This document shows, in pieces, positions 41,219 to 61,938 of a stretch of DNA of 64,000 bases. The first letter of the stretch is position 1; every line of letters begins with the position of its first letter. The notes below the pieces were generated by a model, which was not told the origin of the DNA, searched no databases, and worked only from the letters and a program-made list of their open reading frames with translations. The translations under genes were made by a program, and so were the position numbers. Origin of the DNA: Lebetimonas natsushimae. GTDB lineage: Bacteria > Campylobacterota > Campylobacteria > Campylobacterales > Nautiliaceae. The stretch spans positions 124,001 through 188,000 of the forward strand of contig NZ_BDME01000002.1 in assembly GCF_002335445.1 (NCBI RefSeq), read 5' to 3'.

Positions 41219-41752
41219 TTAAATTCCTAAAACTTTAACTTCATCAGGATTTACATTACAAATATTTGGTATGTTTTCAGGATTCAGTGCCAATTCTTTA
41301 TTATCCATTATTACAATATTATTCTCTAAAATATGTTTTGCAACTTTTTTGGCACCTTCAAGTGAGTGCATATAACAGCTGCCGCATTGGTATATATTGG
41401 CTTCAGGGATTGTATCTGTATCAAGAATATTCTGCATAGATTTTCTCCAGGCCTCAATCACCTCTTCATCTTTTGGAGTTCCGATTATACTCATATAAAA
41501 GCCGGTTCTGCATCCCATAGGTGAAATGTCAATTATATCGTATTCAGGTAAATTGTCTCTCATATATCCTGCAAAAAGATGTTCAAGTGTATGCATTGCT
41601 TTTTCGTCAATTATTTCTTTGTTTGGTTTTGCAAATCTTACATCATAAACGGTGATAATATCACCTTTTGGAGTTTTCATATGTTTTGCCACTCTAAGTC
41701 CAGGTGAGGGCATTTTAACGTGATCAACCAAAAAGCTGTCAAGCATTGGCAT
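41219..41752 (-). CDS. luxS: S-ribosylhomocysteine lyase LuxS
   Basis: 177 residues. Metal site HTLEH (in [13 protein letters not shown]) with the third His in the C-terminal part, and the catalytic Cys in [11 protein letters not shown]. It cleaves S-ribosylhomocysteine to homocysteine and the AI-2 precursor, so it serves methyl-cycle recycling and possibly signalling. A -10 TATAAT lies on the minus strand at 41775-41780, head to head with the rpsB promoter. Confidence 0.95.
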
Positions 41753-41792
41753 AATTCATCCTTTTTTTGTTGCAATTATACATAAACTTTGA

Positions 41793-41798
41793 TAAAAT
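41793..41798 (+). promoter_or_regulatory. -10 box of the rpsB operon
   Basis: TAAAAT (within GATAAAATTT). A start near 41805 would leave a leader of about 105 bases containing a structured element. Confidence 0.55.
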
Positions 41799-41813
41799 TT
41801 CATTTCTAGTTCT

Positions 41814-41879
41814 CACCTCTCAATCCTTGGTCGGGTTGGAGCGTATGCTCTTAATGGGGAGGGAGGCTAAACCCAGCCA
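41814..41879 (+). promoter_or_regulatory. rpsB leader RNA, predicted H-type pseudoknot
   Basis: Three stems can be drawn. P1: 41816-41821 and 41824-41827 with 41857-41866 (ten pairs, two-A bulge). P2: 41829-41837 with 41870-41878 (eight pairs, one C-A mismatch). P3: GAGC-GTAT-GCTC at 41839-41850, extended by a wobble. The 3' strand of P1 lies inside P2, so the fold is a pseudoknot. Likely an S2-responsive autoregulatory leader (inference). It lies 22 bases upstream of the GGAG of rpsB. Confidence 0.6.
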
Positions 41880-41909
41880 AAAAATAAAAAAATAATTCAA
41901 GGAGAAAAA

Positions 41910-42734
41910 ATGGCGTGTAATGTTACAATGAAAGATTTATTAGAATGCGGTGTTCATTTCGGGCATCAAAAAAGAAGATGGAATCCAAAAATGAAAAAAT
42001 ATATTTTTGGAGTTAGAAAAAATATTTATATTATTGACTTACAAAAAACATTAAGATTTTTCAAATATGCTTGTAATGTGGTAAGAGATGCGGCAGCTGA
42101 AGGAAAAACAATTCTTTTTGTAGGAACTAAAAAACAGGCAGTAGAAGCTGTAAAAACTCATGCCGAAAGAGCTGGAATGCCATATGTAAACCACAGATGG
42201 CTTGGTGGTATGCTTACAAACTTCCCTACAATTCAAAAATCAATCAGAAAACTTGAAATAATTGAAAAAATGGAAGAAACCGGACAAATTAATCTTTTAA
42301 CTAAAAAAGAAAGATTAATTCTTGCTAGAAGAAAAGCAAAACTAGAAAGGGTTCTTGGCGGTATCAGACATATGAAAAAACTTCCTGATATGCTATTTAT
42401 AATTGATACAGTAAAAGAAAAAATTGCAGTTGGTGAAGCTAATAAACTTGGTATTCCAATTGTGGCTCCACTTGATACAAACTGTGACCCGGATGTTGTT
42501 GATTATCCAATCCCAGGAAATGACGATGCAATAAGAAGTGTAAATCTTTTCTGTGAGAAAATAGCCGATGCAATAATTGAGGGCAAAGAAATGGCTGAGA
42601 GCGCAGGGGAAGAAACTAGGGAGATTACAGAAGAAGAAATGAATCAGGAAATCAAAGAAGTAAAAGAAGAAGCAGCTAACGAAACAAAAACAGAAGAAGA
42701 AATAAAAGAAGAAATTGAAAAAGAGGAGGCATAA
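41910..42734 (+). CDS. rpsB: 30S ribosomal protein S2
   Basis: 274 residues. The body is canonical: [65 protein letters not shown]. After about residue 225 there is an acidic, helical tail of roughly 45 residues (many Glu and Lys) absent from E. coli S2 (241 residues). GGAG precedes the ATG. It leads rpsB-tsf. Confidence 0.96.
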
Positions 42735-42735
42735 T

Positions 42736-43662
42736 ATGGCAGCTAAAATAAGCGCAGCTCAAGTAAAAGCACTAAGGGAAAAAACCGGTGCTGGAATGAT
42801 GGATTGTAAAAAAGCACTAGTAGAAGCAAACGGAGATGAAGAAAAAGCGGTTGAAATATTAAGAAAAAAAGGTCTTGCAAAAGCTGCTAAAAAAGCAGAC
42901 AGAAACGCGGCTGAGGGAAGAGTTGAAATTTACATTACACCTGATTACAAAAAAGGAAGTATTGTAGAAATAAACTGTGAAACAGACTTTGTTGCCAAAA
43001 CCGATGAATTTGTAGAATTTGTAAGCGAAACTGTAAAAACAATCAATACCGAAAATATTGAAAATGTTGAAAGCCTAAACAAAGCAAAATTTGGAAACGG
43101 AACTTTTGAAGAAGAACTTAAAGTTAAAATTGCAAAAATTGGTGAAAATATTGTTGTTAGAAGAATGGCTACAATTAAAGCCCCAGAAAACGGAATTGTA
43201 AACGGATATATCCATGCAGGCGGAAAAGTTGGTGTATTAGTTGCAGCTGAGTGTGACAAACCTGAAACTTGCGATGCAATTAAAGACACTCTAAAAGATA
43301 TTGCAATGCATATTGCAGCAATGAAACCGTCTTTTCTAAATCCTGAAAGTGTTCCAGCTGATGTAATTGAAAAAGAAAAAGAAATTGCAAAAGCACAACT
43401 TCTAAAAGAAGGTAAACCGGAAAACGTAATTGAAAAAATTATCCCTGGTAAAATTAAAAAATTCTATGAAGAAAGCTGTTTAACTGAGCAGGAATATGTA
43501 AAAGCTGAGAAAAAAGAAAATGTTGCTAAAGCTCTTGAAAATGCGGCCAAAAAAGCAGGCGGAAGTGCAAAACTTGTTGATTTTGTAAGATTTGAAGTAG
43601 GTGAAGGGCTAGTTAAAAACGGATGCACTTTGGCTGATGAAGTTGCAGCAGCCCTTCAATAA
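42736..43662 (+). CDS. tsf: Elongation factor Ts
   Basis: 308 residues. N-terminal UBA-like domain with ALREKTGAGMMDCKKALVEA, core motif INCETDFVAKTDEF and MHIAAMKPSFLNPE. It is the nucleotide exchange factor for EF-Tu. ATG 42736 follows GAGGAGG; a TTG at 42715 in frame is less likely and would overlap rpsB more. It ends at a terminator. Confidence 0.96.
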   Translation: MAAKISAAQVKALREKTGAGMMDCKKALVEANGDEEKAVEILRKKGLAKAAKKADRNAAEGRVEIYITPDYKKGSIVEINCETDFVAKTDEFVEFVSETVKTINTENIENVESLNKAKFGNGTFEEELKVKIAKIGENIVVRRMATIKAPENGIVNGYIHAGGKVGVLVAAECDKPETCDAIKDTLKDIAMHIAAMKPSFLNPESVPADVIEKEKEIAKAQLLKEGKPENVIEKIIPGKIKKFYEESCLTEQEYVKAEKKENVAKALENAAKKAGGSAKLVDFVRFEVGEGLVKNGCTLADEVAAALQ

Positions 43663-51596: not shown

Positions 51597-52789
51597 ATGA
51601 ATTTAAACTCGCCGAAAGATTTGGAACTTAAAGAGGGAAACAGTGTATTTTTAAGATGTGATTTTAATGTGCCTTTGGATGAGTTTGGAAATATTACGGA
51701 TGACAGAAGAATCAGAATGGCGCTTCCTACCATCAGGTATTTAATAGACCACGGGTGTAAAATTGTAATAGGCTCTCACTTAGGAAGACCAAAAGGGGAA
51801 TTTAATGAAAAATATTCACTAAAACCTGTTGCAAAAAGACTTTCAAAACTTTTAAATCAGGATGTGATTATGGCAGATGATGTTGTCGGTCCTGATGCAA
51901 AAAGCAAAGCGGTTAATTTACAAAACGGGGAAGTTTTACTGCTTGAAAATTTAAGATTTGACCCGAGAGAGACAAAAAACGATGAGGGATTTGCAAAAGA
52001 ATTATCTGATTATGGGGAGTTTTATATAAATGACGCTTTTGGAGTAAGCCACAGGGCTCATGCAAGTGTGGAGGCAATTACAAGATTTTACGATGACAGA
52101 CACAAAGCGGCTGGATTTTTACTGCTTAAGGAAATAAATTTCTTTTATAAACTTCTTCAAAAACCGGTTAGACCTTTTGTGGCTGTTGTCGGCGGCAGTA
52201 AGGTAAGCGGAAAACTTCAGGCATTAATGAATCTGCTTGATAAAGTGGATAAAATGATTATCGGCGGCGGTATGGCTTTTACATTTTTAAAGGCTATGGG
52301 GTATAATGTAGGTAAAAGTCTGGTGGAAGATGATTTGATTGATGAGGCATTAAAAATTATGGCCGAGGCTAAGAGGCTTGGTGTTAAATTTTATCTGCCG
52401 GTTGATATAGTGGTTGCTGACAGGTTTGCAGAAGATGCAATGGTAAAATATGTACCGTCCCAAGAAATTCCGGATGATTGGATGGGGCTTGATATAGGAC
52501 CTGCAAGTGTTAGGCTTTTTGGGGAAGTTTTATGGGATGCGCAGACAATTCTTTGGAACGGCCCAATGGGGGTTTATGAAATGGATAAGTTTAGCAGGGG
52601 GACATTTAAAATTTCCCATGAAATTGCAAGAAGCCACGGAATTAAAGTGGTAGGCGGGGGAGATACGGCCGATGCGGTTCAAAGAGCCGGGGATGACGAA
52701 GAGATGACATTCATATCAACCGGCGGCGGTGCAAGCCTGGAACTGCTTGAAGGTAAAAAACTTCCTGCAATTGCGGCATTGGAGATAAA

Positions 52790-60692: not shown

Positions 60693-61938
60693 GATTGGAA
60701 TAGTGGGTCTTGGCACGGTTGGCACAAGCGTTGTAAAAGTTTTACAGAAAAACAGAGACATAATTACTTCAAGGGCCGGAAAGGAAATAATGCCTGTTAG
60801 GGCTGTTGTTAAAAACTTAAATAAAAAAAGAGATGTTGATATAGAACTTACCGATGATTATAAAAAAGTAACAAGAGACAGTGAAATTGATATAGTAGTA
60901 GAACTTATGGGAGGGGTTGAAGAAGCGTATAAGGTTGTAAGTGATGCGCTCAAACATGGAAAAGCCGTAGTTACAGCAAATAAGGCCCTTCTTGCATATC
61001 ATAGATTCGAACTTCAAAAACTGGCAAAAACCCCTTTTGAATACGAAGCTAGCGTTGCAGGGGGTATTCCTGTAATTAAGGCACTGAGAGATGGGCTAAG
61101 TGCAAATCACATTGAAGAAATTCAGGGGATTATAAACGGAACGTGTAATTATATTTTAAGCGAAATGAAAAAGGGAAGAGATTATTCTGACGTTTTGAAA
61201 GAAGCACAGGTTCTTGGATATGCGGAAGCTGACCCGACTTTTGATGTGGGGGGATTTGATGCTGCCCACAAACTGCTTATTTTGGCAAGTATTGCGTATA
61301 ATATTGATGCAAAGCCAGAGGATATTTTAATTGAGGGAATTGAAAATATTAATTTGGTAGATATTGAGTTTGCAAAAGAGTTTGGTTATGAAATTAAACT
61401 TCTCGGAATTGCCAAAAAAGATAACAATAAAATAGAACTTCGTGTACATCCTACATTAATTCCACAAAGTAAAATGATTGCAAAAGTTGAAGGTGTTATG
61501 AATGCCGTAAGTGTTATCGGCGATGTTGTGGGTGAGACTATGTATTACGGACCCGGGGCCGGGGGAGATGCAACTGCCAGCGCTGTAATAAGTGATATTA
61601 TCGAAATTGCAAGAGGTCAAAACAAACCGATGCTAGGATATAAAAAACCTCTTGAAATTGAAAAACTGACTTTAAAAACTCCAGATGAAATTGAAACAAA
61701 ATATTATTTAAGAATTGCCGTTAATGATGAAATTGGCGTGCTTGAAAAAATTGCGCATATTTTGGCAAAAAATGATATTTCAATCGAAAGTTTCCTGCAA
61801 AAACCAAGAGACGGATTTGTAAAACTTCTTTTTGCAACCCATAAATCAATTGAAAAAAATGTTAAAAATGCAATAAAAGAAATAGAAAAAGAAAAATTTG
61901 TAATTAAGCCAATTAATTATATTAGAATAGAAGAATGA
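60685..61938 (+). CDS. hom: Homoserine dehydrogenase
   Basis: 417 residues. NAD(P) site [16 protein letters not shown], the catalytic region [20 protein letters not shown] and [14 protein letters not shown], and a C-terminal ACT domain ([20 protein letters not shown]). It makes homoserine for Thr and Met, and the ACT domain gives threonine feedback. It shares ATGA with the next gene. Confidence 0.95.

Follow-up and report, generated by a model that had tools for sequence, protein, structure and literature searches.

The closest described systems are the leader RNAs of rpsB that are controlled by ribosomal protein S2. In Escherichia coli, free uS2, aided by bS1, represses rpsB-tsf at the level of translation; the ribosome-binding site lies outside the S2 operator, and the route of autorepression has been described as unclear on this account (accessible text of PMC10931766). 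The rpsB motif, as delineated in the accessible sections of Meyer et al. (2009; PMC2704228), is built on a stem P1 that ends in a junction bearing P2 and P3; either of these two can be missing, and a pseudoknot links the P2-P3 junction to a 3' extension following P1. The hosts named there are Alpha- and Gammaproteobacteria, some Cyanobacteria and Firmicutes, and a few Epsilonproteobacteria. The S2 leader class, the topology of the rpsB motif and a small number of epsilonproteobacterial members are, to the extent covered by these sections, already known. Within the accessible text of the open-licence literature, no paper on the rpsB leader of Campylobacterota was found, apart from the one mention in PMC2704228. 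The present analysis concerns a 64,000-nt stretch of the Lebetimonas natsushimae genome (the window), in which a pseudoknotted leader RNA had been predicted from the sequence at 41814-41879, upstream of rpsB.

Architecture of the leader and its operon

The genes rpsB and tsf are preceded by a 157-nt gap, on the far side of which lies a divergent ORF (41219-41752, minus strand) that we take to be luxS-like. The presumed controlled gene, rpsB (ribosomal protein S2), is an ORF at 41910..42734 on the plus strand, and its homologues in relatives are accompanied by the leader. The second gene of the operon (42736..43662, plus strand; listed as an ORF from an upstream TTG, with an ATG at 42736) is presumably tsf (EF-Ts), judging from its sequence and its place in the operon. 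The conserved element begins around 41812 (CUCAC), and the leader core, delimited by covariation and conservation, occupies 41812..41874 as an H-type pseudoknot with an inserted hairpin. All of its parts lie on the plus strand, in the order P1 5', P2 5', P3, P1 3' and P2 3'. The two strands of P1 (41816..41821 and 41857..41862) form the pairs CG, CG, UA, CG, UG and CG, and the pseudoknot helix P2 joins GGGUU (41833..41837) to AACCC (41870..41874) through the pairs GC, GC, GC, UA and UA. The P3 hairpin (41839..41850; stem 41839-41842/41847-41850) is separated from the P1 3' strand by a 6-nt joint. The three stems of the original prediction can thus be formed, and the 3' strand of P1 does lie between the two strands of P2. 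The accompanying claim that the knot has almost no unpaired linker fails: L1 (AAUCCUUGGUC, 41822..41832), between the P1 and P2 5' strands, is 11 nt long, and a conserved 7-nt linker, GAGGCUA (41863..41869), lies between the P1 and P2 3' strands in the alignments. Both segments contain some of the best conserved letters of the leader.

The leader had also been singled out for its GC content, said to exceed that of any other intergenic sequence except tRNA and SRP RNA. The 56% measured at 41814-41879 (the window as a whole has 30%) agrees with this, as equally GC-rich 66-nt stretches occur at six other places, namely a tRNA (28.5 kb), the SRP RNA (40.2 kb) and four sites inside long ORFs. Two ORFs contain stretches (52624-52753 and 61499-61596) in which GC content is 56% or higher and peaks at 61-64%; these ORFs are presumably a pgk-like and a homoserine-dehydrogenase-like gene.

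A consensus scan located a promoter-like site, TTGCAA-17-TAAAAT (41770..41798, plus strand), from which the 5' end of the RNA is placed near 41805. With this site just upstream, the knot would form the 5' end of the mRNA. Where upstream sequence sufficed (107 of 161 leaders), a TATAAT-like site, allowing one mismatch, precedes L1 in 99 relatives, compared with 69.7 in shuffles, and in 56 of the 99 it lies 21-26 nt before L1. Promoter-like sites overlap on both strands between the luxS-like gene and rpsB (41775-41803 and 41770-41798).

Small H-type pseudoknots include riboswitches, and the presence of a luxS-like neighbour in the window would suit a metabolite riboswitch, for example one tied to that divergent gene. 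Such an identity is highly improbable, given that riboswitch families are absent from the Rfam matches up to E 10 and that the element remains linked to rpsB in genomes whose more distant upstream sequence differs.

Covariation and distribution across the order

When folded alone and without pseudoknots, the leader yields -23.8 kcal/mol, an unremarkable value (z -1.32). Single-sequence energy is therefore no proof of the fold, and the proof is supplied by comparison across relatives. An rpsB search was successful in 59 of 60 genomes, the source genome included, and the upstream region was readable in 57 of these, the other two holding only a C-terminal piece of rpsB. A strict leader pattern fits 52 of the 57 upstream regions and a slightly looser one fits 53; the 53 leaders obtained with the looser pattern were aligned with MAFFT. 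In this alignment 98.7% of P1 cells and 94.6% of P3 cells are paired. Paired cells amount to 97.1%, against 62.5% after shuffling, and the covariation score of P1 and P3 is 1.011 against 0.320, neither value being attained in any of 500 shuffles; sliding the strands against each other abolishes the P1/P3 signal. An ordinary single-sequence fold would be expected if the element were conserved base by base without structure, or if its pairs had arisen by chance. The pairing counts and their collapse on sliding leave this reading, which had been named beforehand as one that would overturn the prediction, a negligible probability, and on the covariation counts it was ruled out.

A covariance model (R1) was built from the 53-leader alignment without the pseudoknot pairs. 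At E <= 0.01 it matches 322 of the 398 genomes of the order, and 280 of the 343 good-quality genomes. The N-terminus of rpsB was recognised by a loose motif at 96 of 100 loci found by R1; three of the remaining four are 211-nt stretches, and the aligned sequence of the fourth (L189) is identical to that of L103, which was obtained via rpsB itself. In an alignment of 100 sources (99 distinct), which was fitted to R1 instead of being made by MAFFT and is biased towards structure, 96.5% of cells are paired (P1 97.5%, P3 95.1%) and covariation reaches 1.083, against 0.339 after shuffling and no more than 0.203 after sliding.

Since R1 lacks the pseudoknot pairs, the test of the pseudoknot helix is independent of it. 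A GGUU core is present in 86 of the 100 leaders, 82 of which have AACC downstream. Of the 14 variants departing from GGUU, ten are matched by the fitting complement in the same leader, where windows taken from other genomes would lead one to expect 2.1: AGUU with AACU (5/5), GCUU with AAGC (3/3), GGCU with AGCC (1/1) and UUUA (1/1), the last being probably a mis-registered core. CGGU (0/2), UGUU (0/1) and AGGU (0/1) are uncompensated. Aligning the rpsB upstream regions of relatives, which had been proposed as a check, has thus brought out compensatory changes, and the predicted pseudoknotted leader RNA, down to its H-type topology with an inserted hairpin, is borne out: P1 and P3 covary, and the pseudoknot variants are mostly compensated. 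On this comparative evidence, the pseudoknotted fold upstream of rpsB is real and conserved across the order, including Campylobacter and Helicobacter.

Kinship with the S2 leader class

With the rpsB motif (Meyer et al., 2009; partly RF01815) the leader shares P1, P3, the pseudoknot between J2-3 and the 3' extension, and the dispensability of P2. As the motif is defined in the accessible text of PMC2704228, the leader shows its position 5' of rpsB, its P1 with a junction and its pseudoknot between the P2-P3 junction and a 3' extension; it differs from the motif in that its P1 is short and the motif-type P2 is missing. Likeness to t44 of Gammaproteobacteria (RF00127) extends to the site before rpsB, the strand order, GGU(U)G before P3, the GGAGG linker and the AACC 3' strand, and CACAC, the GGU core, GGAGG and AACC are common to the leaders here and the E. 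coli t44. In contrast, the alignments show no counterpart of the inner stem that t44 forms, with nine pairs, between P1 and the pseudoknot strand, and L1 carries UCCUUG, unlike t44.

Rfam searches gave matches below the cut-offs. No family reached its cut-off at the leader in the window. On 20 relatives, t44 matched in place in nine, at 22.7-31.2 bits against a cut-off of 44, and RF01815 (cut-off 40) produced a single match of 23.6 bits, with none on the window. A t44 scan of 60 genomes returned three matches at the rpsB site and a fourth, weak one elsewhere (G032); the gathering score of 44 bits was reached in 0 of the 60, and the E. coli control scored 83.5 bits. In the reverse direction, R1 was used at E <= 10 to search E. 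coli together with 80 rpsB loci from GTDB genomes. The 29 matches comprise 12 of 15 Campylobacterota loci, 15 of 65 others, E. coli and one placed elsewhere (L108); all except L108 sit right before rpsB, and the E. coli match covers t44.

The original prediction had not recognised the shape as the known S2 family of gammaproteobacteria. This stands in so far as the Rfam search gave no relevant match on the window and only sub-threshold t44 matches in relatives; it does not stand as regards kinship, the rpsB-motif topology being shared and t44 matches being obtained both ways. From these sequence comparisons, the leader is a diverged, compact member of the S2 leader class (rpsB motif/t44) of about 63 nt. 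It is assigned to that class and not to RF00127 as curated, because it lacks the nine-pair inner stem and scores below the cut-off. The same missing stem, together with t44 scores that all fall below the cut-off, could also be taken to mean that the rpsB leader of Campylobacterota evolved separately, as an S2-binding RNA non-homologous to t44. This is unlikely in view of the strand order, pseudoknot and conserved letters common to t44 and the rpsB motif, and of the finding that R1 recovers the E. coli t44 and leaders outside Campylobacterota right before rpsB.

At eight loci (L142, L121, L136, L161, L163, L145, L173 and L120), clear S2-type leaders were also noticed some 20-100 nt ahead of rpsB; these loci belong to Clostridia, Bacillaceae, Geobacter, Desulfuromonas and Nitrospirae. 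Among these eight, Rfam at E <= 0.1 matched L136 alone (t44, 28.3 bits, below the cut-off).

R1 found no match in 76 of the 398 genomes, and 17 of these were covered by an rpsB search, the remaining 59 lying outside the check. The 17 comprise four in which no rpsB was found, nine of group f16, three of group f23 and one with a partial rpsB; family names for these groups were inferred from likeness to named loci. The f16 leaders resemble those at L105-L107, loci named as Sulfurimonas and Sulfuricurvum. In the 12 leaders of this type (nine f16 and three named), different letters permit a knot with the same topology. All six pseudoknot pairs form in 10 of the 12, where shuffled windows average 2.8 of 12 with a maximum of 6; with Watson-Crick pairs only, 8 of 12 own windows succeed against 3 of 124 windows of other members. 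For P1, which provides a weak test, the counts are 9 of 10 own against 47 of 76 cross. An Rfam scan of five f16-type loci gave nothing relevant, and the UCCUU loop is absent from Sulfurimonas-type leaders. Upstream of rpsB at L106, L107, L244, L247-L250 and L252-L254, a knot is formable where neither R1 nor Rfam matches. Examples of this type have P1 as AUGUC/GACAU, the pseudoknot as GUCGGU/ACCGAC and a GUGC motif, and by eye a short hairpin stands just before the Shine-Dalgarno sequence in many of them.

Mode of control and complementarity of L1 to the Shine-Dalgarno sequence

Transcription attenuation was considered and rejected, as no terminator-like site occurs in 41700-41950; control is for this reason likelier to be translational. 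The leader is probably the 5'-UTR operator of rpsB-tsf, as a compact and diverged member of the S2 leader class. By analogy with E. coli, free uS2 in excess over the 30S subunit, probably together with bS1, would bind and stabilise the knot, and the stabilised knot would lower the translation of rpsB and, through rpsB, that of tsf. A leader answering bS1 or EF-Ts instead of uS2 would be in keeping with tsf in the operon and with the assistance that bS1 gives to repression in E. coli; S2, by contrast, is the known repressor at the homologous E. coli leader, which makes either of these regulators very unlikely (both points from the accessible text of PMC10931766).

For an operator of uS2, the loop L1 suggests a direct path to the ribosome-binding site. 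Its UCCUUG (41824-41829, plus strand) is complementary to CAAGGA of the rpsB Shine-Dalgarno sequence (CAAGGAG, 41898..41904, plus strand). At least five consecutive L1-SD pairs are found in 147 of 161 distinct leaders with rpsB, and at least six in 99; the 14 leaders with fewer than five include L311, which is probably misread. C precedes AAGGA in 106 of 161 rpsB SDs (a leader set with at least four misread leaders) against one of 28 SD-like sites in the window, that of rpsB itself; the window's SD-like sites serve for this comparison, tsf SDs being confounded by lying in the end of the rpsB coding region. UCCUA occurs with UAGGA in five leaders and UUCUC with GAGGA in one, and A stands opposite A in nine.

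Shuffles across 100 leaders, which ignore relatedness, give P 0.014 at position 5 and P <0.001 at position 6, and a pair excess is absent at positions 7 and beyond. Phylogenetically independent pairs provide no covariation support at x6/y6 (1.6 changing the same way, 1.3 the other way and 9.1 without difference). A Pagel-type test of correlated evolution, run on the leader set with at least four misread leaders, returns p 0.0001 at position 6, p 0.0002 for a control pair and p 0.12 at position 5. The complementarity between L1 and the Shine-Dalgarno sequence is itself a fact, and its role in regulation is hypothetical.

Loss of the t44 inner stem leaves the L1 loop free for pairing with the Shine-Dalgarno sequence, and direct masking by L1 is plausible. 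As a weaker extension of the mechanism, the folded state with UCCUUG paired to CAAGGA might mask the ribosome-binding site directly. Masking of this kind would depart from E. coli, whose S2 operator excludes the ribosome-binding site. A fuller scenario can be offered tentatively: the S2 operator of Campylobacterota may have been stripped down, so that the freed loop acts as an anti-SD and the S2-bound knot closes the ribosome-binding site, with the letters rewritten and the topology kept in the Sulfurimonas type.

Possible novelties are the order-wide extent of the leader, its lack of the inner stem, its anti-SD-like loop and the version with rewritten letters in the Sulfurimonas type. A leader of about 63 nt that is present across the order and missed by Rfam cut-offs offers a small object for structural work on uS2 and bS1, and it suggests a testable route of control, in which the Shine-Dalgarno sequence would be masked by loop L1. 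Furthermore, the covariance model would allow the leader to be annotated in Campylobacter, Helicobacter, Arcobacter and their relatives.
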